A stretch of DNA of 35,186 nt from Bacteroidales bacterium (GTDB lineage: Bacteria > Bacteroidota > Bacteroidia > Bacteroidales > UBA4181), in NCBI GenBank assembly GCA_031271175.1, contig JAISWE010000114.1:1-35186 (forward strand). The letters are read 5' to 3'. The position numbers were made by a program, and so were the translations under genes. This document shows positions 14,808-31,048 of this stretch, one piece after another (position 1 is the stretch's first letter; each line of letters begins with the position of its first letter). The notes beneath the pieces are model-generated. The model was given only the letters and a program-made list of their open reading frames with translations. It did no database searches and had not been told where the DNA came from.

Positions 14808-14839
14808 TTTGTTCATTCAAAGATTTTCGCGTACCTTTG
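14808..14839 (+). promoter_or_regulatory. Promoter of mgtE
   Basis: TTTG at 14808-14811 and TACCTTTG at 14832-14839 are separated by exactly 20 bases and match the Bacteroidetes consensus fully. Transcription would begin near 14846, giving an unusually long leader of about 150 bases before mgtE. Confidence 0.65.
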
Positions 14840-14845
14840 CGAAAA

Positions 14846-14995
14846 AATCAGAGACTCTCTGACAATAGTAATCAAAATCAAAAACAATGGACGAAGGACC
14901 GTATCCTGAGCGAAGTAAGCAAGAATAACCCGTATCTGTCAAGAGTCCCAAACAGGTCTCTTTACGGAAGAATTATAATGTAAGGAGATCATATC
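14846..14995 (+). promoter_or_regulatory. Structured mgtE leader, possible Mg2+-responsive control region
   Basis: The leader holds several elements. A hairpin TCAGAG-ACT-CTCTGA lies at 14848-14862. A 13-codon ORF follows at 14887-14928. A second hairpin at 14930-14967 pairs CCGTA with TACGG and AAGAG.CC with GG.CTCTT. ATG-TAA is at 14978-14983, and AAGGAG at 14982-14987 lies 8 bases before the mgtE ATG. CCGTA also occurs inside the small ORF (14899-14903), so the downstream TACGG arm has two possible partners. Control of mgtE by this leader is inferred from the layout only. Confidence 0.4.
14887..14928 (+). CDS. Possible 13-codon leader peptide upstream of mgtE
   Basis: The ORF encodes MDEGPYPERSKQE. 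It begins with two acidic residues and has prolines at positions 5 and 7. The leader peptide MgtL of enterobacterial mgtA likewise begins with acidic residues and alternating prolines, and it senses low Mg2+ by destabilising translating ribosomes. The resemblance is in composition, not in alignable sequence. Its location between the mgtE promoter and mgtE makes it a reasonable candidate. There is no ribosome-binding site, which is normal in this phylum. Confidence 0.3.
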   Translation: MDEGPYPERSKQE

Positions 14996-16336
14996 ATGAA
15001 CGAAACCGGAATACATTTCCGCGAATTAATTGAATCCAAGAGTTGGAAAACCCTTAAACGCGAGGTCAACGAACTTGATCCTCTCCAGCTGGCCGACATC
15101 ATCGAAGAGATGTCCAAAACGGACGAAATATTTATTTTCCGTTTGCTGTTGCGCCAGCGTGCGAAAGAGACTTTTCAGTTTCTTTCGCACGACAAGCAGG
15201 AAGAAATCATCAACGGGCTGGCCGTTTACAGCAATATTGTCACCGGTCTGCTCAACGACCTTGATCCCGACGACCGTACCGCTTTCTTTGAAGAACTGCC
15301 CGGCGCCGTCAGCCAGCGGCTGGTACAGCTGCTTTCGGCCGAAGAACGCCAAATCGCCACCCGACTGCTCGGATATCCCGAAGACAGTATCGGACGTCTG
15401 ATGACGCCCGAATATGTGGCGGTAAAACCCTATTATACCGTATCGGAAGCGCTGGAACACATCCGCAGGTTCGGCCGCGATTCGGAAACGCTGAATGTCA
15501 TCTATGTGGTGGACGACAGTTGGCGCCTGATTGACGACGTCCGCATCAAGGAAATCATCCTGGCATCGCCAGAACAGAAAATCGCGGATATCAGCGACAA
15601 CCGTTTCGTATCGCTCAACGCCTTCGATGACCAGGAAGTTGCCATCCGGTATTTTCAGGATCACGACCGCGTCGCCTTGCCGGTGGTCGATATCGACAAA
15701 ACCTTGCTGGGAATCGTCACTTTCGACGACGTGATGGACGTGGTGGAAGAAGAAAACACGGAAGATTTCCACAAATTCGGCGCTTTTCAGGAAGCCATTG
15801 TCAATCCCGTCAAGGCGCGTTTTGCTTATCTCTACAGACAGCGCGTCTTCTGGCTTACCGCACTGGTATTTATGAATGTCTTTTCGGGCGCTGCCATTTC
15901 GTTTTTCGGCAACGTCATCGAACATACCGTTTCGCTGGTATTCTTCCTGCCGTTGCTCATCGGCAGCGGCGGCAATGCCGGTTCGCAATCCGCCACCCTG
16001 ATGATCCGCGCCATTGCCATTGGCGACGTCGAACTGAAAGACTGGTTTCGCCTGTTGGGCAAAGAACTGTGGGTGTCGTTTCTGCTGGGATTCACCATGG
16101 CGGCAGGCGTATCGTTGATCGCCGGATTCCGGGCGCCGGAAGTACTGCCGGTAGTAGCGCTCACCATGATACTGACCGTCATCACCGGCAGCCTGATCGG
16201 ATTGATCCTGCCCTTTATTTTTACCAAACTGAAACTCGACCCGGCAACGGCAAGCGCTCCACTCATCAGTTGCATCTCGGACATCACGGGGGTATTGATC
16301 TACTTCTCCATCGCCACCTGGATGCTGCCAATATAA
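14996..16336 (+). CDS. mgtE: Magnesium transporter MgtE
   Basis: This 446-aa inner-membrane Mg2+ channel has the full MgtE architecture. An N-terminal superhelical domain comes first (LQLADIIEEMSKTDEIFIFRLL region), then two CBS domains (GRLMTPEYVAVKPYYTVSEAL to TFDDVMDVVEEENTEDFHKFG). The connecting helix leads to five membrane segments from about residue 283. The pore motif is visible in LPLLIGSGGNAGSQSATLMIRAIA, followed by GLILPFIFTKLKLDPATASAPLISCISDITGVLIYFS. The gating CBS domains sense cytosolic Mg2+. The start is supported by an AAGGAG Shine-Dalgarno sequence 8 bases upstream, unusual in this phylum. Confidence 0.95.
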   Translation: MNETGIHFRELIESKSWKTLKREVNELDPLQLADIIEEMSKTDEIFIFRLLLRQRAKETFQFLSHDKQEEIINGLAVYSNIVTGLLNDLDPDDRTAFFEELPGAVSQRLVQLLSAEERQIATRLLGYPEDSIGRLMTPEYVAVKPYYTVSEALEHIRRFGRDSETLNVIYVVDDSWRLIDDVRIKEIILASPEQKIADISDNRFVSLNAFDDQEVAIRYFQDHDRVALPVVDIDKTLLGIVTFDDVMDVVEEENTEDFHKFGAFQEAIVNPVKARFAYLYRQRVFWLTALVFMNVFSGAAISFFGNVIEHTVSLVFFLPLLIGSGGNAGSQSATLMIRAIAIGDVELKDWFRLLGKELWVSFLLGFTMAAGVSLIAGFRAPEVLPVVALTMILTVITGSLIGLILPFIFTKLKLDPATASAPLISCISDITGVLIYFSIATWMLPI

Positions 16337-16528: not shown

Positions 16529-17950
16529 TTATAGTTTTCCGGCTGCTTTCAGGTAGTACGTTTCATGGTAGCGTTGGCTGGTTCCGGCGTTGATGAGATT
16601 TACGCACGCTTGTTGCCATACGGTTTGTGCTTCCAGATAACCGGCAAGCGTTTCCATGCCTGCTTCATACTGGTCGCGGCTCACCTTCATGTTTTCTTCG
16701 GCCTGTTCGAACGACTTCCGCATCAGTTCCGTTTCCAGCGCCGCTTCATCGCATTTGTTGATGGCCTGCATAAGGTCGAGTTTCATTTGTTCGCCGGCAT
16801 CGTCAAGTTGTATCTCCATGATCTTCCGTTCCGCCTCTGCCGAACGAATTTTATTCCGTCCTTCGCCCCAGTGGAACAATGGTACTTCGACCGACACAAC
16901 GGCGGAAAGGGACAGCTTGTTCAACAGGGGACTGCCGTTGAGTTTCAAACCGTACACATAGCCGTAGTTGGCCATAATCCCGGCCTGAGGAAGAAAATCG
17001 CTCCGGATCAGGCTTATTTCCTCCTGTTTCAATTCATTTTTTTTCAAAAGAATGGCATATTCGGGACGTTCCGTATGTCCGGCCGCACGATCGATACCGA
17101 CAGCAGAGGAAAATTCGAGGGAATCGGCGGCCACGACAGGCGTAACAAGGCTGATACCCATGATGCGACAGAGATTCATTCGCGAGAGGCGAACGCCGTT
17201 TTCCGCTTTTCGCAACTGCAATTCGGCCTCATTCACTTTTACCTGTACTTTCAGTACGTCGTTGCGGGGTTTCAGGCCTTCATCAAAGGCATCCTGCACG
17301 TTGCGCAGAAGTTCGGTCACTACTTTGCGGTAAACTTCCGCCAATTTCACCATTTCGACGGTTTTTACAAAAGTCCAGTAGGCTTCATCGGTCATGACAA
17401 TGATTTCGGCGCGGGTTAACTGTCGATTCAGGCCGGCTATTTCATTTCCTATCAGCGACATTTTGCGGGCAGACCGTATCTTTCCGCCCATGTAAACAGG
17501 CTGTTCGGCGCGGATGCCGACCATATAGGAGCCGTTGAGTTTCAACGAGATGTCCATGTCGGGAAAATAGGCGTATTCCTTGAATACCGGAGTGCCATCC
17601 GTATTGTACACGGGCGTTCCGTCGGGGAGCGTCAACAGGTTGGGGGTCAGTTCTCCGGTGGCAAGGTCGGGAACAAAAGTCGGCAGGTAATTGCCCGCAA
17701 GTGTTTTGTTCATCTCCGTGTGGGAATACAGGTAGCTCCCCGACAATGAGAATTTCGGAAAATAATTCGCTTTGAAGGCTTTGGCATCATGTGCTGTTTT
17801 CTCGAAAGTCAGCGAAGCGACGGCAATCGCCCTGTTGTGTTCCAACGCTGTTGCCCGACACTGTTCGAGCGTCATTTTCTGCTGTTGCGCTCTTGCACAG
17901 AGAGAGATAAGGGCAAGTAAAACACAAGAGAGACTTTTTCCTGTTGTCAT
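16529..17950 (-). CDS. TolC-family outer-membrane efflux protein (RND system)
   Basis: The product is 473 aa. It has a signal peptide (SLSCVLLALISLCARAQ) and the first efflux repeat (KMTLEQCRATALEHNRAIAVASLTFEKT). Aromatic beta-strand segments and a second helical repeat ending in AEENMKVSRDQYEAGMETLAGYLEAQ complete it. It is the last gene of a three-gene RND operon, 11 bases after the pump gene, and would supply the outer-membrane exit channel. It is clearly a different paralogue from the TolC protein of the ABC system at 8088-9449. Confidence 0.88.
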   Translation of the reverse strand: MTTGKSLSCVLLALISLCARAQQQKMTLEQCRATALEHNRAIAVASLTFEKTAHDAKAFKANYFPKFSLSGSYLYSHTEMNKTLAGNYLPTFVPDLATGELTPNLLTLPDGTPVYNTDGTPVFKEYAYFPDMDISLKLNGSYMVGIRAEQPVYMGGKIRSARKMSLIGNEIAGLNRQLTRAEIIVMTDEAYWTFVKTVEMVKLAEVYRKVVTELLRNVQDAFDEGLKPRNDVLKVQVKVNEAELQLRKAENGVRLSRMNLCRIMGISLVTPVVAADSLEFSSAVGIDRAAGHTERPEYAILLKKNELKQEEISLIRSDFLPQAGIMANYGYVYGLKLNGSPLLNKLSLSAVVSVEVPLFHWGEGRNKIRSAEAERKIMEIQLDDAGEQMKLDLMQAINKCDEAALETELMRKSFEQAEENMKVSRDQYEAGMETLAGYLEAQTVWQQACVNLINAGTSQRYHETYYLKAAGKL

Positions 17951-17961
17951 GAGAATGATTT

Positions 17962-20900
17962 TTAGCGTTTAACCTTGATGTTGAAAAAGACGGCGTAGAG
18001 GATGGGAACGAACAGCAGGGTGATGAGCGTGCCGAACAGCAGGCCGCCCATGATGGTTACCGATCCCGAACCGAACAGGTCGTCGGTAATCAGGGGTAAC
18101 ATGCCGAGGATAGTGGTCAGCGAAGCCATCATCACCGGCCGGAAACGGCTCGACGAACTGTCGAGCAGGGCTTTCATCGGCTCTACTCCCTGCAATATCT
18201 GCAAATTGATTTCATCCATTAGGACGATGCCGTTCTTCACCATCATGCCGATCAGTCCCAGTACGCCTACGATGGCCACAAAGCCAAACGCCTTGCCCGA
18301 TAAAAGCATGGCAACCGTTACGCCCACCATGATGAGAGGAATGCAGCAGAAGATAATCAGCGGTTTTTTGTAGTCCTTGAACAGCATGATGAGAATGGTA
18401 ATGATCAGGATGATTCCCAGCGGGAGGTTTTTGAACAGGTAACGGGTAGCTGTCGAACTTGCCCTGTATTCGCCTTCCCACTGAAAGGAATAACCTTTGG
18501 GCAAGGGTATCCGTTCAATCTCCTCACGGATTTTCTGGCGGGCATCTTCGGCGCTTACGCCGAAGACGGGATTGCATTGCGCCCGCATGGAACGCTGGCC
18601 GTTGAAACGTACCACTACCGGATCTTCCCATACCACCCTGACGCCTTTGGACGCCTGACTCAAGGGAATGGTGCGGAGAAGGGATTCCAGCAGTTCTTCT
18701 TCGCCTACAGCGCCCGTCATTAGTCCCTGTATGGTTTGCCGGTCAATTTTGTCTAACGGAGGTAGCAGGTTGAATACCGGTATGTTGTCAAGGTTTTCGA
18801 TAGGCTGACCGTTTTTGTCCACACATTTGAAATAGATATTCATCGGGGTGTTGCCGTCGTAGAAAACGCTTACCGGAATGCCTCCCGCCGCAGCAAGTAA
18901 CGACAGCCCCACATCCTGCCTGCTCAGTCCGATATTGCGGGCTACCGGCTGGTTATATTCCACCGTGAGCGTTGGCGTTTGGGCTTCCCAATTAGAGTTG
19001 ACAAGAAAAATATCGGGGCAGTTGTGCATGATTTCCTGCGCTTGGACGGTAAGTTGCCGGAGTATTACAGGGTCGGGGCCGTTGAATTGCGCCTCAATAG
19101 GATATTTTTTGTACATGAGATTGTAACGTTTCAACCGTACATAGGCGTCGGGGCAGGTCTTGGTGAGGTGCGCCTGTATTTCCGCCATGCCGGTTTCCAG
19201 TTTTTCGGGCGATACGAAATCGACGATCAGTTCGCCGTAGGAAAGCGACGGTTCGGCAATGCTGCGCACCAGGTTATAGCGGCTGGGAGTGCCTCCTACC
19301 GACGCAGTAACATGCGTTATATCGGGACGCGCCAGCAGGTAATCCTCAATGCCGCACAAGTCCTGTTTCACACGCGCACTGTTCACTCCTTCCGGAAGTT
19401 TGTATTCGATGTACAACTGGTTATAACTCATGTCGGGGAAGAAGCCCTGCGGCAGCATCCGGTAAGCGAAGCCGCTGAGCACGACCAAAACGGCGGCTAC
19501 GGCAATGGATACGCTCTTGTGTTTCAAACCCCATGTTAACATGCCGCGCAATATTTTGTAGGGACGGGAGTCGAAAAGCGGTTTTTGCTCCTGCGAATGG
19601 TTTTTCAGCAGAAAATTTGCATGGATAGGCACCTGCGTCAGTGCAAGCAGCCAGCTCAACAGCAGCGAAACAGCCAGTACGATGAAAAGGTCTCTGACGT
19701 ATATGCCGGCAGTGTCGGGCGAAAGAAAAATCGGCAGGAAGGCAAGGATGGCGATCAGGGTGGCCGCCAGCAAAGGAATGGCTGTTTTGCGGCCTATGGC
19801 TGTGAGGGCTTCGGAACGGGGTTTTCCTCGTTTCAGATCGACCAGGATGCCGTCGATAATGACAATGGCGTTGTCCACCAGCATGCCCATGGCAAGAATA
19901 AAGGCGCCGAGCGAAACGCGCTGAAGCGTCCCGTCAAAGACGTTTAATATCAGAAAAGATCCGATAACCACAATTACAAGGCTGAAACCGATAATGACCC
20001 CGCTGCGAAATCCCATCGTCAGCATCAGGATGAATATGACAATGGCTACGGATTCAACGAGGTTCAGCATGAAGGTGCCCAATGCTTCATTGACACGTTC
20101 GGGCTGGAAGAAGATTTTGTGCAGTTCCATCCCGACGGGAAGGCGGTTTTGCTGCAATCGGGATATCTTTTTTTCCACCTGCCTGCCCAGTTTGGTGATG
20201 TCTGTACCGCTGAGCGCCGCAATGGAAATGCCCAGAGCGGGCAGGCGGTCGTAACGCAGTTCGTTGCGAACAGGTTCTTCCGTCTGCGTTTGTATTTCGG
20301 CTATGTCGCGAAGGCGCAACTGGTCGTTTTCATGCCCTTGCAGCAAGAGGTTTCCGATGTCTTCCACCGTTCTGTAGCGGTCGTCCACCGTCACCCTGAG
20401 CCGTTGCAGGCCGCTTTCGTAATAACCCGAATACATGGTACTGTTCTGTCCGCTCAGCGTGGACAGCACTTCTGCCGGATGAACGCCCAGATGAGCCATC
20501 CGGTTCTCATACAGTTTTATTTCGATGCACTTTTTCCGTTCTCCGTAGATATTCACACGCGAAATGCCTTCAATCGTCATCAGTTCGCGCTGTATCAGCT
20601 GTGCATAACTGCTCATTTCCCTGTCGGAAAATCCGTCCGAGGTGAGGGCGTAGAACATTCCGTACACATCGCCGAAATCATCCATCACCACGGAAACGCC
20701 TGCTCCTTCCGGCAGTTTGCCTTGGACATCGTTCACCTTGCGCCGCAGCATGTCCCAGTACTGTTCCACTGCTCCGTTGGGCACAAGCGTTGCCAGTTCC
20801 ACCGTAATGATCGACACGTCATTCATGGAGCGGCTTTGCACGTCGCCGAGGTCCTTCATGGTGCGGATATTCTTTTCCAATACATCGGTCACTTCCAGTT

Positions 20901-21081
20901 CCACCTGATGCGCCGACGCTCCGGGGTATGGCGTCACTACCAGCGCCTGTTTCACTTTCAATTCCGGGTCTTCCAGTTTGCTCATGTCGTAAAAGGCGTA
21001 TGCTCCGCCCATCAACATCACCACAATCAGGAAATAAACCAGTTTGCGGTTGTTCAACGCCCATTTTCCCACATCCATCAT
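17962..21081 (-). CDS. RND-family efflux pump, inner-membrane transporter
   Basis: The product is about 1039 aa, the usual length for AcrB/CusA-type pumps. It has an N-terminal membrane segment (KLVYFLIVVMLMGGAYAFY), a first porter domain (YPGASAHQVELEVTDVLE) and membrane segments 2-6. These include the proton-relay motif GMLVDNAIVIIDGILVDLKRGKPR with its essential acidic residues. A second porter domain and the final bundle follow, the latter with the related motif GLIGMMVKNGIVLMDEINLQ. The start is set at 21081, where ATGATG overlaps the TGA of the adaptor gene, so translation is coupled. The frame opens 67 codons further upstream inside the adaptor gene and that extension is not credible. 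The substrate is unknown. Confidence 0.92.
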   Translation of the reverse strand: MMDVGKWALNNRKLVYFLIVVMLMGGAYAFYDMSKLEDPELKVKQALVVTPYPGASAHQVELEVTDVLEKNIRTMKDLGDVQSRSMNDVSIITVELATLVPNGAVEQYWDMLRRKVNDVQGKLPEGAGVSVVMDDFGDVYGMFYALTSDGFSDREMSSYAQLIQRELMTIEGISRVNIYGERKKCIEIKLYENRMAHLGVHPAEVLSTLSGQNSTMYSGYYESGLQRLRVTVDDRYRTVEDIGNLLLQGHENDQLRLRDIAEIQTQTEEPVRNELRYDRLPALGISIAALSGTDITKLGRQVEKKISRLQQNRLPVGMELHKIFFQPERVNEALGTFMLNLVESVAIVIFILMLTMGFRSGVIIGFSLVIVVIGSFLILNVFDGTLQRVSLGAFILAMGMLVDNAIVIIDGILVDLKRGKPRSEALTAIGRKTAIPLLAATLIAILAFLPIFLSPDTAGIYVRDLFIVLAVSLLLSWLLALTQVPIHANFLLKNHSQEQKPLFDSRPYKILRGMLTWGLKHKSVSIAVAAVLVVLSGFAYRMLPQGFFPDMSYNQLYIEYKLPEGVNSARVKQDLCGIEDYLLARPDITHVTASVGGTPSRYNLVRSIAEPSLSYGELIVDFVSPEKLETGMAEIQAHLTKTCPDAYVRLKRYNLMYKKYPIEAQFNGPDPVILRQLTVQAQEIMHNCPDIFLVNSNWEAQTPTLTVEYNQPVARNIGLSRQDVGLSLLAAAGGIPVSVFYDGNTPMNIYFKCVDKNGQPIENLDNIPVFNLLPPLDKIDRQTIQGLMTGAVGEEELLESLLRTIPLSQASKGVRVVWEDPVVVRFNGQRSMRAQCNPVFGVSAEDARQKIREEIERIPLPKGYSFQWEGEYRASSTATRYLFKNLPLGIILIITILIMLFKDYKKPLIIFCCIPLIMVGVTVAMLLSGKAFGFVAIVGVLGLIGMMVKNGIVLMDEINLQILQGVEPMKALLDSSSSRFRPVMMASLTTILGMLPLITDDLFGSGSVTIMGGLLFGTLITLLFVPILYAVFFNIKVKR

Positions 21082-22136
21082 AACTCTCCCCCTATGTTGG
21101 TAGATGACGGCGGCGGCAGCGGGGCTACTTTGTCTCCCTGTTGCAGCGAATGGACGCCTGCCGATACCACCAGTTCGCCTGCCTGCAATCCTTCGGATAT
21201 GATGACGGTTCCGTCGGTAAGTATTTCCCGCAATTTGACTGTGCGGGAACAGATGGTTCCGGTTTCCGCATCGTACACCCATACGGCGCTTTCTCCGCTT
21301 TCTCCGAACAGCGCCGTTATCGGAACAGCCGTCATACCGGTTTCATCCGTTTTGTAATGAATGGTCACCATTGTCGACATTCCCGGCGCAGGCAACTCCC
21401 CGCCGGTGTCGCGTATCTTCAGCCGCATGGCATACAACTGGTTGAGGTTGGCTTTCCGCGTAACGCCGATGAGATCCAGCGGAAACGACTTGCCGGGATA
21501 AAAGTCTATGGCACAGTCGAATGATTCGAACCGGCTGCGCCGAATAAAATCGCCTGCCGGAATATTGATTTCTACTTCGGACGAACCGGAATAAATCATG
21601 GAAATTACAGGCATTCCGGCGCCTATTGTTTCGTTGGTGTGAAACAGTTTTTTCTGCACGAACCCGTCAAAGGGAGCAAGGAGTCGGGTATCGGCCAGCG
21701 CGTTTTTGTGCGCGTCGTATTTGGCGGTTATCTGGTGAAGCCCATACACTGCCTTGTCGTAATCGTTGGGGGTTGCACTGCCTTTGTTGTAGAGCGCCAT
21801 TACCCTGTCTGCCTCGGCTTTAACACGGTAATATTCCGCTTCGGTTGCCGAGAGCTGTACGTGATAGTCGCGCGGGTCTATTTCGGCAAGCACCTGCCCT
21901 TTTTTAACGTAAGCGCCCTCCGCCACCGCTATTTTTTGAATCGTGCCCGACACCTTAAATGCAAGATCGACATCGTATGATGCCCGTACTTTCCCTGGAA
22001 AAACGGCCTGTTGCTGCCTGTTGACGGCATAAACCGTATCCGTTTTGACGGTACGAATCTCCGCAACGGGTGTCGGCTGTCGAATACAGGCGTACAGGGA
22101 AAAAACAGCCGCAATGATAATCCGTATGTTTTTCAT
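21078..22136 (-). CDS. RND efflux periplasmic adaptor lipoprotein
   Basis: This 352-aa membrane-fusion protein has a lipoprotein signal with Cys17 after FSLYA. The lipoyl half-motif VSGTIQKIAVAEGAYVKKGQVLAEIDPRDY is followed by a short helical hairpin. The return half (LLAPFDGFVQKKLFHTNETIGAGMPVISM) and barrel domains end the chain (MTAVPITALFGESGESAVWVYD). It links the RND pump to TolC. It is the first gene of the operon and has its own promoter (22172-22202). No TetR or other local regulator gene is adjacent. Confidence 0.9.
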   Translation of the reverse strand: MKNIRIIIAAVFSLYACIRQPTPVAEIRTVKTDTVYAVNRQQQAVFPGKVRASYDVDLAFKVSGTIQKIAVAEGAYVKKGQVLAEIDPRDYHVQLSATEAEYYRVKAEADRVMALYNKGSATPNDYDKAVYGLHQITAKYDAHKNALADTRLLAPFDGFVQKKLFHTNETIGAGMPVISMIYSGSSEVEINIPAGDFIRRSRFESFDCAIDFYPGKSFPLDLIGVTRKANLNQLYAMRLKIRDTGGELPAPGMSTMVTIHYKTDETGMTAVPITALFGESGESAVWVYDAETGTICSRTVKLREILTDGTVIISEGLQAGELVVSAGVHSLQQGDKVAPLPPPSSTNIGGEL

Positions 22137-25594: not shown

Positions 25595-28500
25595 TTATTG
25601 TTTTACCGCTTTTATGGTTTTGCTTTTCCCGTCTTTTTCCAGTCGGAAGAAGTACAGTCCGTTCGGTAAATCTTCCGTGCGGATGGTTTCATCCGGCGAG
25701 GTGATTTTTTGGCTGTGTACCGTCAGGCCGGATGCCGAGAACACTTTCAGGGTACAGCCTTCCGCGCCGGTGAGGTGGAGTTCGCCTGTGAACGGGTTCG
25801 GGTAGAGTGCAATGTCCTTTTGCAGGCGGTCTTCCACGCCGGTGAGGCCTACCGTTACCGTGGCGGAGCCTGTCTTCGTGGCGTCGAAGACGGATGTCGC
25901 CGTGACGGTGAGGATGGTGGCTGTCTCATTGTCGCCTAACCTGAGCAGGCCCGACGCATTAATGGTAGTGCCTGTCGAACTGTTGCCCGACACGCTCCAG
26001 CTTACCGCTTCCGATGCGCCGCCTATAGCTACCACATTGGCGGTGAACTGCTTTGTTTCGCTTTTTTCGAGGTTCACGGAGGCAGGAGTGACCGTTACGG
26101 CGATTATTTCAGGCGACAGCGGAGCTGTAACGCTCACCGTCGCTATGCCGTATTTCGTGTTGTTGACGGTGGACGTAGCCCTTACGGTGAGCGTGGTTGC
26201 CGTTTCATCGGAGGCTACCGTCAGCAGGCCGGTGGCGCTGATGCTGGTGCTTGGCGAGTTTTTGCCCGTGATGCTCCAGTTTACCGTTTGCGCGGCGCCG
26301 CCCGTCACGGCTACGTTAACGACAAACTGGTGCGTGGCGCCTTTCTCTATAGTGGCGAGAGAGGGCGTTACCTGCACGCTGACCACAGTGGGCGTTACCG
26401 GCGTGCTGGTGACCGTTACCGTTGCCTCGCCGTATTTCCCCGTGTTGACGGCGGAAGTAGCCCTTACGGTGAGCGTGGTTGCCGTTTCATCGGAGGCCAC
26501 CGTCAGCAGGCCGGAGGCGTTGATAGAGGTGCCGGCGGATTGCTTGCCCGAGACGCTCCAGCTTACCGCTTCCGATGCGCCGCCCGTGACCGTTACGTTG
26601 GGGATGAATTGCTGCGTGGTGCCTTTCTGTACGCTGACGGGATGAGGCGTTACTGCTACGTTCAACACTTCGGGAGTAGAGGGTATCGCGACCGTTGCCT
26701 CGCCGTATTTCGTGTTGTCGAAAGTGGAAGTAGCCCTTACGGTAAGCGTGCTTGCCGTTTCGTTGGAGGCTACCACCAGCAGGCCTGATGCGCTGATGGC
26801 GGTGCCGGCGGATTGCTTGCCCGAGACGCTCCAGCTTACCGTTTGCGCAGCGTCGCCTGCCGCTGTCACAGTGGCGCTGAACTGCCGCGTGTCGCCCTTT
26901 TGCAGGTTGACGGTGGCGGGCGTTACCGAAATGTTCAGTATTTCGGGCGTCACCGGAGGCTCGGCGCGGGTGACGGCAATGTTATAAATGAGTTGCGTCC
27001 CGTCTTCGGCGATGACCGTTACCGGGAACAGGTTGCCGGAGCCTACGTTCAGCGCATACTGGCCTGTGCCGTTGACCGTCGCCGACGTATGGGCGGCTGT
27101 GGCCGCAATGGTGATGCCGTCCGTCGAGTGGGGTACGCTGACGGTATAAGCTGTAACGGCGGCGGAGAACGACGGCGCGAGGCTGCCCGGAGCAGCCGAC
27201 AGGGCGCTCAGCGTGGCGTTGCCGTTGGCACTGACTCCCGCGCGGTGAACGTTAAGATGATAGGTCTTGTTGCCTGCGCCGGTTGTCACCGTGACGGAAA
27301 GGGTATTATTCCCCACGGTAAGGCTTTGAGCGCCCGTTTGACCCGAAATGGCTGCTCCGGTAAGCGCTTCGGCCACAACGGTAACGGAGCTTGCGCTGTT
27401 CGGTACGTTCACGGAGTAAGTGTCCGTTTGTGGGCTGAATGTCGGCGACAGCGGGTAGTTGAGTACGGAAAGCGCCGTGAGCGCTGCCGCCTGATGCTGG
27501 CTGACGCTCCATGTGTAGGAGTATTCGTAGTTTGCCGAGGCTGTCCACTGGATGTAATAAGCGGCGCCTGCCGTGGCCGTGAAAGTGAGGCTGCCCATAC
27601 CTGAGGCTACCGGCGTATTGCTTTCGCAGCCTGTCCATAGCGAGAGCAACTGCCCTGTCGGGGCGGCAATGTCGTACTGTCCTGCCGAAGGCGCGGTGAA
27701 GACGTACCACAGCGCGCTCCCCGCCGTGTGCGTGTTGCTGACCTGCACGCCTGCCGTTACCGTTGTGGCGTTGTCGCAAAAACGGTTGTCGCTGACTTCG
27801 CGCACCTGCCAAATACATTCGTAATCGGCGCTTGCCATATAGCTTCCTTGAAACCGGATATAATATTCGCCCGGCTCGTTCGCCTGAAAAAGCACTGAGG
27901 TGGAACCGTATGCAACATTCGACAGATCACCGCAGGTTCCGGAAAATATTTCAAAATAGGTGGTGGTCGCATAATTGCTGCTGCTGCTGGAAATTTCATA
28001 GATTTTTCCCTGCTGCGGGGTAAAGCGGTACCAGCGCATGACGCCGCTGTTGAGGATGGAATGAACCGGCGTGCCGGCGTTGACCGACGCTGCAAACGCG
28101 CACAACTGATTGTCGGGCACCGTTTCCGTGACCGTCCAGGTGATGTTGCCGCTGCTTGAAACGTATCCTTCCCATCCGAAGTAGATGAGGGCGTTTTCGC
28201 CTGCTACCGTTTCCTTTTGATGATAGTGTCCACTGTTGCAGTTGCTGCTGAACTGAGAGGACAGGTTCCCGCAGGGGCTGGAATAATAGAGCTCAGTGTC
28301 GAAGGAGGCGCCGCCGCAGTCGCTGATCTCGTATGCTTTTCCTGCTTCGCCGAAAAAGGAGAACCAGCGGATTTCCCCGTTCGCTACGGTGGTGGTGACG
28401 GAGGTGTTCAGCGGCGCCAATGCTGCGGTGGAGCATATCGTATTGCCCGTGACGGGCGTTCTGCTGACGCTCCATTCCGTAGTGCCGCCGTAATAATTCT

Positions 28501-31048
28501 CATACCGGATATAGCAGGTTTGGGCGGAGGATACGGAAAAGAGGAGCGGATCGCCGTCGTAGCCATACCCAAGTTGGTTCGCATTGCTGCCGCAGCCGTC
28601 GAACACGAAGTAGCTTGTGGGGGAGGAAGTGATAGTATGCGTGAGCGTGTAGAGGTATCCGGGCTCTGCCGTCAGGCTGTACCATTGAGAATTGGGCGGC
28701 GCCGTCTGTATGGCGGCGTCGAGCGCAACCGGTATTGCCGTTGTGCAGTCGATGCCGGGGGCGGCTTCCAGTAAGGCAAATGCGTTAATCCCTTCGGCGT
28801 TGAAACGGAGGTAAGCCGTTCCGCTTTGAGCGGCATGGTAGGCCAGTTCACTCACTCCTTCGCTCCCGGATACGGAGGCTACGGGGCTGCTCTGGTTGCA
28901 GGCCGTATAAACCGCCGCATCCATGTGCTCAAGTTTGTAGATGATGTAACTTTCCCCCGCAGTGGCGGCAAACTTGTACCAGAGCGGCTGCCCCGCCGGC
29001 GCAATAGCGGAATGAGTGACGTCCGGGTCCATGAAGTCTGCTGCTGCCGTTACCGTTTCCGCTGCTGCGCAGGAGGTGTTGGTCTGCACGGGCGGCGTAT
29101 ATGCTTCGACGCGCCAGTCGATCTCGGCATTTGCCTCCCCTTCCCACTCGACATAGTGGTAGCCGGAGGTTTCGGCGATAAAGAGATAGCTGGTATCCGA
29201 AAGGCTGAAGCCTGTAGAGGAATCCTGGCAGTCCTCATACACAGATGGATTTGCATAGTTTGTATTCGACTCGTACAAGATCCGGTAGGCAACGCCCGCG
29301 GCGACGGGGAATTTATACCATACGGTTCCGTAAGAGGAAGAAGTGAGTATTTCCGTTTGTATGTCAGTGCCGAGGGCGGCAGTTATTGCGCCTGCACAGA
29401 CCTTCGTGCTGATGCCGAGGTCGTTGACCTGCCAGTTGACGGAAGGGTTGGTGGGATATGAAGAAGGGCCATACAGCCAAATGATGTATTCGCCGTATTC
29501 TTGTGCGGTGAAGGTCAAACCGGCGGACAGGAAATCCTCACTAATGTAATATCCGAAACAGCTTGTCTGCACCACCGCTCTAACCTCGAAGTCATTGGCG
29601 ACAGCCGGTATTTCATAGGAGTGGCCGGCTTCCACCACCAGCCGGTAATAGCTTTGCGGGATGACATACTGGTTGAATTGGTTAAGTTCCGGCGTAAGGA
29701 TGTTTACCTGCCCTGCGGTAACGGCTCTTGCGGCTTCGCAGGTGGTGTTGGGCACGTCGGCGGCGGCAACCTCGCGAATCTTCCATGTCACGTTACCTCC
29801 GGCATAATTAGTGTATCGGATGAGCGCTGCTCCGTTGCCTGTCGCCCTGAACCATACCGTACCGTCGCTGCTGCCGGCAATGTACTGCTCTTCGCAGTCG
29901 GCGAATACTGTAATGGCGCTGTTGTTGTCGCCCTCCACGGCATACCATTTCCCTGCCTGCACGTTGACGCTGTACCACAGAGACCGACTGTTCGCATGGT
30001 CGGCAGTAACGGGAGTGTTCAGCGTAACCGCTTCGGCATAGGCGCATACGCGGTTGTCGGTGATGGCCGTCACGCTCCAGTCGGTGGACCCGGAGTTGGC
30101 ATAGAAGCGGATGTAATAATCCTGCGTAGTCGGCGCGGTGAAGAAGAGCTGTTCGTAATCGGAGCGGAAGGGGTAGCTATCGCCGCAGGAAGCATACATG
30201 TAGAAGTTACAACTGCTGCCGGCTATTCCGTAGCTTTCGCCTGCGGTGGCCGCCAATTTGTACCAGCGGTTTTCTCCGGTGACGGCAGTAACAGGAGTGT
30301 TCAGCGTAACCGCTTCGGCATAGGCGCATACGCGGTTGTCGGTGATGGCCGTCACGCTCCAGTCGGTGGACCCGTAGTAGCCATAGAAGCGGATGTAATA
30401 ATCCTGCGTAGCCGGCGCGGTGAAGACGAGCTGGTCATAACCGGAGCTGAAGGGGTAGCTGCTGCAGGAAGCATACACATCGAAGTAGCAACTGCTGCTG
30501 CCGGCTATTCCGTAGCTTTCGCCTGCGGTGGCCGCCAATTTGTACCAGCGGTATTCTTCGGTGACGGCAGTAACAGGAGTGTTCAGTGCAACTGCTTCGG
30601 CATAGGCGCATACGCGGTTGTCGGTCACTTCGGTCAATGTCCAGTCAAAACTGCCGGTGCCGGAGTTGCCCATGTAGCGTCTCCACTGGATATAATACGT
30701 TCCGTTCGAACCGGCGGTAAAGGCAAGATATGTAGCGTAAACGTAACCGGAAACGCATCCATCGTCGTTATAAGCAAAACTGCCTCCATCCGATTCATAA
30801 TAGATAGACACTTCGGTATCCAGGGAGGCGTTGCCGCAGTTGCTGACAACGTAGCTACTGCCTGCTACTCCGGTGAAGGAGAACCACTGCTCGGCGCCGT
30901 CGGTAAGGATTTGCGCCTGCGGCATAGTGCCGTCAACGGCTACGGCGACTGCTTCATTTCGTGTGGCGCCGCCCTGTGCCTGCGCCGTCATTTGCCATCC
31001 CCATAGGAACAGCGTTGTACATAATAAAAAAGCGTTTACATTTTTCAT
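25595..31048 (-). CDS. Giant T9SS-sorted surface protein with 11 PPC-like repeats, two cadherin-like and four Big-type domains
   Basis: The product is 1817 aa. A signal peptide (about residues 1-24, ending TAQAQ) is followed by about eleven repeats of 95-115 residues up to about residue 1186. Each repeat has the pattern N..CA.A..V...V....WY.F.A..G..Y.I, a second Cys near the middle and a YYI.W strand near the end, resembling the PPC beta-sandwich. Two cadherin-like beta-sandwich domains (PF12733 type) span about 1187-1367 and four Big-type Ig-like domains 1368-1737. A Por sorting domain follows at 1738-1817 (LYPNPFTGELHL to GLYFFRLEKDGKSKTIK). No catalytic motif was found; adhesion or matrix function is a guess. 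Repeats 2, 3 and 4 share a 282-bp DNA period, so part of the gene was duplicated recently. Confidence 0.88.
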   Translation of the reverse strand: MKNVNAFLLCTTLFLWGWQMTAQAQGGATRNEAVAVAVDGTMPQAQILTDGAEQWFSFTGVAGSSYVVSNCGNASLDTEVSIYYESDGGSFAYNDDGCVSGYVYATYLAFTAGSNGTYYIQWRRYMGNSGTGSFDWTLTEVTDNRVCAYAEAVALNTPVTAVTEEYRWYKLAATAGESYGIAGSSSCYFDVYASCSSYPFSSGYDQLVFTAPATQDYYIRFYGYYGSTDWSVTAITDNRVCAYAEAVTLNTPVTAVTGENRWYKLAATAGESYGIAGSSCNFYMYASCGDSYPFRSDYEQLFFTAPTTQDYYIRFYANSGSTDWSVTAITDNRVCAYAEAVTLNTPVTADHANSRSLWYSVNVQAGKWYAVEGDNNSAITVFADCEEQYIAGSSDGTVWFRATGNGAALIRYTNYAGGNVTWKIREVAAADVPNTTCEAARAVTAGQVNILTPELNQFNQYVIPQSYYRLVVEAGHSYEIPAVANDFEVRAVVQTSCFGYYISEDFLSAGLTFTAQEYGEYIIWLYGPSSYPTNPSVNWQVNDLGISTKVCAGAITAALGTDIQTEILTSSSYGTVWYKFPVAAGVAYRILYESNTNYANPSVYEDCQDSSTGFSLSDTSYLFIAETSGYHYVEWEGEANAEIDWRVEAYTPPVQTNTSCAAAETVTAAADFMDPDVTHSAIAPAGQPLWYKFAATAGESYIIYKLEHMDAAVYTACNQSSPVASVSGSEGVSELAYHAAQSGTAYLRFNAEGINAFALLEAAPGIDCTTAIPVALDAAIQTAPPNSQWYSLTAEPGYLYTLTHTITSSPTSYFVFDGCGSNANQLGYGYDGDPLLFSVSSAQTCYIRYENYYGGTTEWSVSRTPVTGNTICSTAALAPLNTSVTTTVANGEIRWFSFFGEAGKAYEISDCGGASFDTELYYSSPCGNLSSQFSSNCNSGHYHQKETVAGENALIYFGWEGYVSSSGNITWTVTETVPDNQLCAFAASVNAGTPVHSILNSGVMRWYRFTPQQGKIYEISSSSSNYATTTYFEIFSGTCGDLSNVAYGSTSVLFQANEPGEYYIRFQGSYMASADYECIWQVREVSDNRFCDNATTVTAGVQVSNTHTAGSALWYVFTAPSAGQYDIAAPTGQLLSLWTGCESNTPVASGMGSLTFTATAGAAYYIQWTASANYEYSYTWSVSQHQAAALTALSVLNYPLSPTFSPQTDTYSVNVPNSASSVTVVAEALTGAAISGQTGAQSLTVGNNTLSVTVTTGAGNKTYHLNVHRAGVSANGNATLSALSAAPGSLAPSFSAAVTAYTVSVPHSTDGITIAATAAHTSATVNGTGQYALNVGSGNLFPVTVIAEDGTQLIYNIAVTRAEPPVTPEILNISVTPATVNLQKGDTRQFSATVTAAGDAAQTVSWSVSGKQSAGTAISASGLLVVASNETASTLTVRATSTFDNTKYGEATVAIPSTPEVLNVAVTPHPVSVQKGTTQQFIPNVTVTGGASEAVSWSVSGKQSAGTSINASGLLTVASDETATTLTVRATSAVNTGKYGEATVTVTSTPVTPTVVSVQVTPSLATIEKGATHQFVVNVAVTGGAAQTVNWSITGKNSPSTSISATGLLTVASDETATTLTVRATSTVNNTKYGIATVSVTAPLSPEIIAVTVTPASVNLEKSETKQFTANVVAIGGASEAVSWSVSGNSSTGTTINASGLLRLGDNETATILTVTATSVFDATKTGSATVTVGLTGVEDRLQKDIALYPNPFTGELHLTGAEGCTLKVFSASGLTVHSQKITSPDETIRTEDLPNGLYFFRLEKDGKSKTIKAVKQ

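Follow-up and report, generated by a model that had tools for sequence, protein, structure and literature searches.

The Mg2+ transporter gene mgtE of this Bacteroidales genome, found in a window of 35,186 nucleotides (the whole stretch of DNA that was analyzed), is preceded by a leader that probably acts as a translational attenuator, in which an acidic mini-ORF is translated to sense Mg2+. Judged from sequence comparison, we put the probability of this reading at roughly 0.75. Comparison with related leaders shows peptide-level selection at the start of the mini-ORF, mutually exclusive and covarying helices, a stop codon beside the first helix arm, and an exclusive link to Mg2+ transporters. 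Bacteroidota are a major phylum of the gut and the environment, and to our knowledge the control of their Mg2+ uptake has not been described. The sequence-only reading of this DNA likewise knew of no such case in Bacteroidetes, and no Bacteroidota leader of this kind turned up in a search of open-access papers.

The mgtE leader and its mini-ORF

The regulated gene (14,996–16,336, + strand) starts with an ATG at 14,996 and encodes a 446-residue Mg2+ transporter with Pfam MgtE, MgtE_N and CBS domains, which passes the TIGR00400 profile with 392.2 bits against a cut-off of 232.75. The source genome is a 2.93-Mb Bacteroidales metagenome assembly, 80% complete, and the nearest named relative for MgtE is a Bacteroidales MAG whose protein is 93% identical. 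Upstream on the same strand lies a predicted promoter (14,808–14,839) composed of TTTG (14,808–14,811), a 20-nt spacer and TACCTTTG (14,832–14,839), which fits the Bacteroidetes-type consensus TTTG / TAnnTTTG as quoted in PMC7366714, and transcription is expected to start near 14,845. Of 65 relatives, 56 have the TAnnTTTG element no more than 110 nt 5' of the mini-ORF, as compared to 5.2 expected from shuffles. With a promoter ending at 14,839 and the start codon at 14,996, the roughly 150-nt leader with its own promoter that had been proposed from the sequence alone holds up. Directly after the expected transcription start, a short hairpin (14,850–14,862) was observed, which recurs in the genus with differing sequences (L003–L006) and in the window and L003 can alternatively pair with the arm designated A below. 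Convergent with mgtE, an RND efflux set (OEP, ACR_tran and HlyD-type) occupies 16,529–22,136 on the - strand, and 25,595–31,048 (- strand) encodes a 1817-residue protein that combines cadherin-like and Ig-like domains with a Por secretion tail.

The mini-ORF MDEGPYPERSKQE (14,887–14,928, + strand; 13 codons) was compared over 93 non-redundant mgtE leaders taken from the window's genus and order. A mini-ORF of the pattern M[DEK][DE]x[PS], starting 135–75 nt 5' of mgtE, was present in 65 of the 93 and missing from the other 28. Three control intervals each yielded the pattern in 0 of 92 leaders, and dinucleotide shuffles did so in 0.09% of cases, which places the acidic, proline-containing 13-codon ORF picked out in the sequence-only reading far above chance and its first residues among the conserved features of related mgtE leaders. 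Some leaders lacking the motif have other acidic or proline-containing starts (MPEN..., MPER... and MGEKPH... in L092, L095 and L065), which are perhaps drifted variants of the mini-ORF.

In the window, the Asp2-Glu3 acid pair and Pro5-Tyr6 are the conserved residues, and the tail is free in sequence and length; mini-ORF length varies widely between leaders. Residue 5 is proline in 63 of 65 and residue 6 tyrosine in 51 of 65, with codon 5 spelled as CCG (27), CCT (25), CCC (10) or CCA (1). Entropies at bases 1, 2 and 3 over the 65 leaders were 0.58, 0 and 1.06 bits for codon 2, 0, 0 and 1.28 bits for codon 3, and 0.20, 0 and 1.56 bits for codon 5. These codons thus vary mostly at the third base, indicating selection on the amino acids as opposed to an RNA motif. 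On this comparative evidence, the mini-ORF is real and is selected at the peptide level.

Mutually exclusive helices and the terminating ribosome

Three arms follow the mini-ORF stop on the + strand: A (segment 2; UCUGUCAAGAGUCC, 14,935–14,948), B (segment 3; GGUCUCUUUACGGA, 14,955–14,968) and C (segment 4; UGUAAGGAGAUC, 14,979–14,990), the last of which contains the mgtE Shine-Dalgarno sequence. Their consensus sequences, 5' to 3', are UCUGUAAGG, CCUUACAGA and UGUAAGGAG, respectively. Arm A mimics the Shine-Dalgarno stretch of C, and B can therefore pair with either one. In the window, B pairs with A over 14,955–14,968 or, alternatively, with C over 14,955–14,966, forming 12 bp that hide the Shine-Dalgarno sequence. 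Over the 65 leaders, 91.2% of cells in the A:B helix were paired, 8 of its 10 pairs had changed on both sides, and its covariation was 0.299 (0.225 ± 0.010 in shuffles). The corresponding values for B:C were 84.6%, 8 of 12 pairs, and 0.277 (0.208 ± 0.011 in shuffles). Kinship among the leaders inflates these shuffle comparisons, and the stronger evidence comes from the double changes and from control helices in slid registers, which were at most 61% paired. The hairpin covariation looked for among relatives is therefore present as compensatory changes in both helices, and A:B and B:C are shown by this comparison to be two mutually exclusive, conserved, covarying helices. Folding energy of the whole leader was ordinary (z = -0.91 versus shuffles) and was dropped as evidence in favor of the comparative support.

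The competition postulated in the sequence-only reading thus exists, but between different arms. That reading had two CCGTA copies competing for a single TACGG, and these motifs are indeed present in the window (14,899–14,903 and 14,930–14,934; 14,963–14,967). Across relatives, however, 22 of 65 mini-ORFs contain CCGTA and 8 of 65 leaders contain TACGG, and the window itself is the only 1 of 65 to have both, a match that may be due to chance; these motifs were rejected as switch arms. One way to view the downstream CCGTA copy is as a different register of the conserved A:B helix. A leader scan revealed no U-tract or terminator-like site on the + strand, and a role for the downstream hairpin as a transcription terminator was accordingly rejected. 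No Rfam family, M-box (ykoK) included, matched the leader at its gathering score; the best match at E ≤ 10 was PK-repBA, with 12.7 bits where 45 are needed.

A fourth element, segment 1, lies within the mini-ORF. Codons 3–6 formed more stable duplexes with the 3' side of A from their own leader (mean -9.66 kcal/mol) than with permuted partners (-8.14 ± 0.25 kcal/mol; 0 of 20,000 permutations, 65 leaders), whereas a comparison segment, codons 7–10, was matched in 632 of 20,000. In leaders 75–85% identical with segments differing on both sides, cross-pairing was 1.1 kcal/mol worse than own pairing. Full five-base 1:2 helices, counted strictly, numbered only 22, as compared to 14.5 ± 2.0 in permutations, one of which gave 23. 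The case for 1:2 pairing accordingly lies in the energy test, and the related sequences compared are not independent of one another. Over the family, segment 1 thus appears to co-vary with A, giving the order 1:2 / 2:3 / 3:4. In the window the pairing is weak, with segment 1 GGAC (14,896–14,899; codons 4–5) able to form only 4 bp with GUCC at 14,945–14,948.

The position of the stop codon ties the mini-ORF to the helices. Measured from the first base of the stop, arm A begins at offsets of -4 to +9 nt (median 3, 65 leaders), and a terminating ribosome would therefore cover all or part of A. When leaders were folded only up to the end of B, as in a nascent RNA, with ribosome footprints masked, the mean probability of A:B was 0.72 with no ribosome, rose to 0.90 when a ribosome sat at codon 3 and fell to 0.03 when it sat at the stop. 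The window gave 0.85, 0.83 and 0.40, the last value remaining higher because its arm A begins 9 nt after the first stop base. In equilibrium folds of the full leader, B:C dominated in all states (mean 0.71 and window 0.86 with the ribosome at codon 3), so that in the model the ON state needs kinetic, co-transcriptional trapping of A:B. Masking at equilibrium barely moved the switch of the window, and the states were better resolved in the nascent-chain version.

These features suggest how the leader might work. When Mg2+ is ample, ribosomes would read MDEGPYP... through to the stop beside arm A, and the terminating ribosome would cover A, leaving B to pair with C and hide the mgtE ribosome-binding site (OFF). 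At low Mg2+, by contrast, ribosomes would be destabilized or slowed at the early acidic (and proline) codons and never reach A; the uncovered A could then pair at once with newly transcribed B, freeing C so that MgtE is made (ON). We infer here that Mg2+ is the signal, that ribosome destabilization on acidic codons is the sensor, that the output is translational, and that low Mg2+ is the ON state.

One leader design before several transporter families

Genomes were searched with a covariance model trained on the 65 mgtE leaders; because the number of candidates scored in each genome was capped, its matches speak to specificity, not completeness. At E ≤ 0.01, the search of 393 genomes from the order yielded 39 sites, and a phylum sample added two more in one genome; the window's own genome contained one site at E < 1. 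All 41 sites at E ≤ 0.01 directly precede Mg2+ transporters: 20 MgtE, 18 CorA (PF01544), two operons in which the gene for an NRAMP-family protein comes after one for an MgtE_N/CBS/PRC protein, and one MgtA ATPase (TIGR01524, 1222 bits). MgtA was rejected as a general carrier of the leader (1 of 7 loci only), as were distant MgtE paralogues (25–32% identity), which lack an MDEGP-type mini-ORF.

An acid-pair mini-ORF precedes CorA in 18 of 22 close cases (proteins at least 53% identical) and 16 of 20 more distant ones, as compared to 0.2–0.5% of shuffles. The distant CorA leaders mostly have MDDYH... starts and A, B and C sequences of their own; among these (L199, L205, L210, L212, L202, L211 and others) an MDDYH[PAS] start often comes without proline. 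In the phylum-wide sample, 7 of 27 CorA leaders have MDDYY-like starts, the MDDYY start being used in L221–L232. MDEGP-like starts were found at all six distinct NRAMP-operon loci (L183, L184, L027, L029, L030 and L031). Across transporter families the arms differ freely in primary sequence while the acidic start and layout stay; in the peptide only the acid pair at residues 2–4 is constant, which favors acidic-codon destabilization over proline sensing.

The same leader design thus precedes four unrelated families of Mg2+ transporter in Bacteroidales and some neighboring groups. Its cultured carriers include Parabacteroides sp. PF5-9 (L048), Seramator thermalis (L105) and Perlabentimonas gracilis (L055). 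CorA leaders (L142, L146 and L153; compare the MgtE leaders L143 and L145) score up to 93 bits with the model built from MgtE leaders only, and in no sampled genome was the leader found before both MgtE and CorA. Together these observations suggest that one transporter gene replaced another behind a leader that persisted. In a genome of another class (G780), two corA copies each have a leader of their own (L171 and L172). At one locus (L183:378–2926), the same leader precedes a PRC/MgtE_N/CBS and NRAMP operon, which hints that the NRAMP-family protein of this operon carries Mg2+. On balance we favor a widespread class of translational attenuators in Bacteroidota that respond to Mg2+ through ribosome instability on an acid pair at residues 2–4; this class would serve at least four non-homologous families (MgtE, CorA, MgtA and MgtE_N/CBS-NRAMP) and would have been kept while the transporter was exchanged. 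If true, Mg2+ sensing by ribosome survival on acidic codons is not solely enterobacterial and appears in a distant phylum, either by convergence or from an old origin. The sequence signature, in which an M-acid-acid mini-ORF is followed first by a repeat of the Shine-Dalgarno stretch and next by the complement of that stretch, would point to Mg2+ transporters, including the NRAMP-type operon, which has no otherwise evident substrate.

Rival readings and related systems

The same attenuator could instead respond to slow decoding of proline or tyrosine codons, through tRNA charging or EF-P. The near-constant Pro5 and frequent Tyr6 of the mgtE leaders fit this, as does the overlap of segment 1 with their codons, an arrangement known from amino-acid attenuators, and a response of Salmonella mgtP to charged tRNA-Pro has been described (PMC8092293). 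Yet in distant CorA leaders the acid pair persists where proline is not fixed (MDDYHS, MDDYYS), the NRAMP operons have MDEGPA or MDEGPD without tyrosine, and none of the 41 model sites precedes an amino-acid gene, leaving decoding of these residues an improbable signal. Attenuation of transcription as in mgtL, with incomplete translation preventing Rho-dependent termination in the leader, would explain the similar peptide start and is how enterobacterial mgtA and corA are controlled (PMC11552253). Against it stand the conserved B:C helix, which covers the Shine-Dalgarno sequence, and a leader whose + strand showed no U-tract terminator; we consider it decidedly improbable.

It is also very unlikely that the RNA itself binds Mg2+ and so shifts A:B versus B:C, with the mini-ORF tuning only basal expression. 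Mg2+ riboswitches are known (M-box/ykoK) and both folds are plausible here, but no Rfam family matched, the arms vary freely between transporter families as the acidic start and layout stay constant, and peptide-level selection would be left unexplained. A chance mini-ORF in an ordinary structured 5' UTR would agree with a leader that folds no better than its shuffles; the mini-ORF, helix, covariance-model and codon statistics exclude it, and we assign it a negligible chance.

The sequence-only reading took MgtL as its model. Its central proposal, an acidic, proline-containing mini-ORF and attenuator before a Bacteroidota Mg2+ transporter, is strongly supported by comparison, but the arms differ from those it named, and by analogy the nearest precedent seems to be Salmonella mgtQ, which acts on translation by sequestering the ribosome-binding site. 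Like the leaders described here, MgtL has acidic and proline residues at the start of its peptide, and its full translation represses a Mg2+ transporter. MgtL acts on mgtA through Rho-dependent transcription termination (Gall 2016 and Chadani 2017, as cited in PMC11552253), whereas here the competing helices would hide a Shine-Dalgarno sequence. EttA relieves acidic pausing in MgtL (PMC11282234). The CorL leader shares a uORF and alternative structures before corA, with uORF translation inverse to corA expression, but it is Rho-dependent, has a UUG start and contains fewer acidic and proline residues (PMC11552253). The order 1:2 / 2:3 / 3:4 with sensing codons in segment 1 recalls trp-type attenuators; unlike in those, the output is a ribosome-binding site rather than a terminator, and the signal is putatively a cation rather than an amino acid.

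The mgtQ-mgtB attenuator (Choi et al. 2021) was tested by mutation, including its acidic codons, stems 1:2 and 3:4 versus 2:3, the ribosome-binding site within 3:4, and L31 dependence, L31 countering the effect of acidic codons on the ribosome in enterobacteria (PMC8092293). Neither L31 nor CorA was found in the 80% complete assembly of the window's own genome. Shared with mgtQ are a very short ORF with early Asp/Glu (conserved here at the peptide level), alternative stems 2:3 and 3:4 with the ribosome-binding site inside 3:4, a proline codon in segment 1, a Mg2+ transporter as target and, presumably, translational control. This likeness is one of logic; no sequence homology was found and no descent is claimed. 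In contrast, mgtQ lies between two genes of one enterobacterial operon, while the Bacteroidota element is a 5' leader common to four transporter families, with an arm A that duplicates the Shine-Dalgarno stretch. Mutation of the mgtQ start codon lowers mgtB in Salmonella (PMC8092293), but the Bacteroidota nascent fold favors A:B even without a ribosome, and the outcome of such a mutation may differ here.
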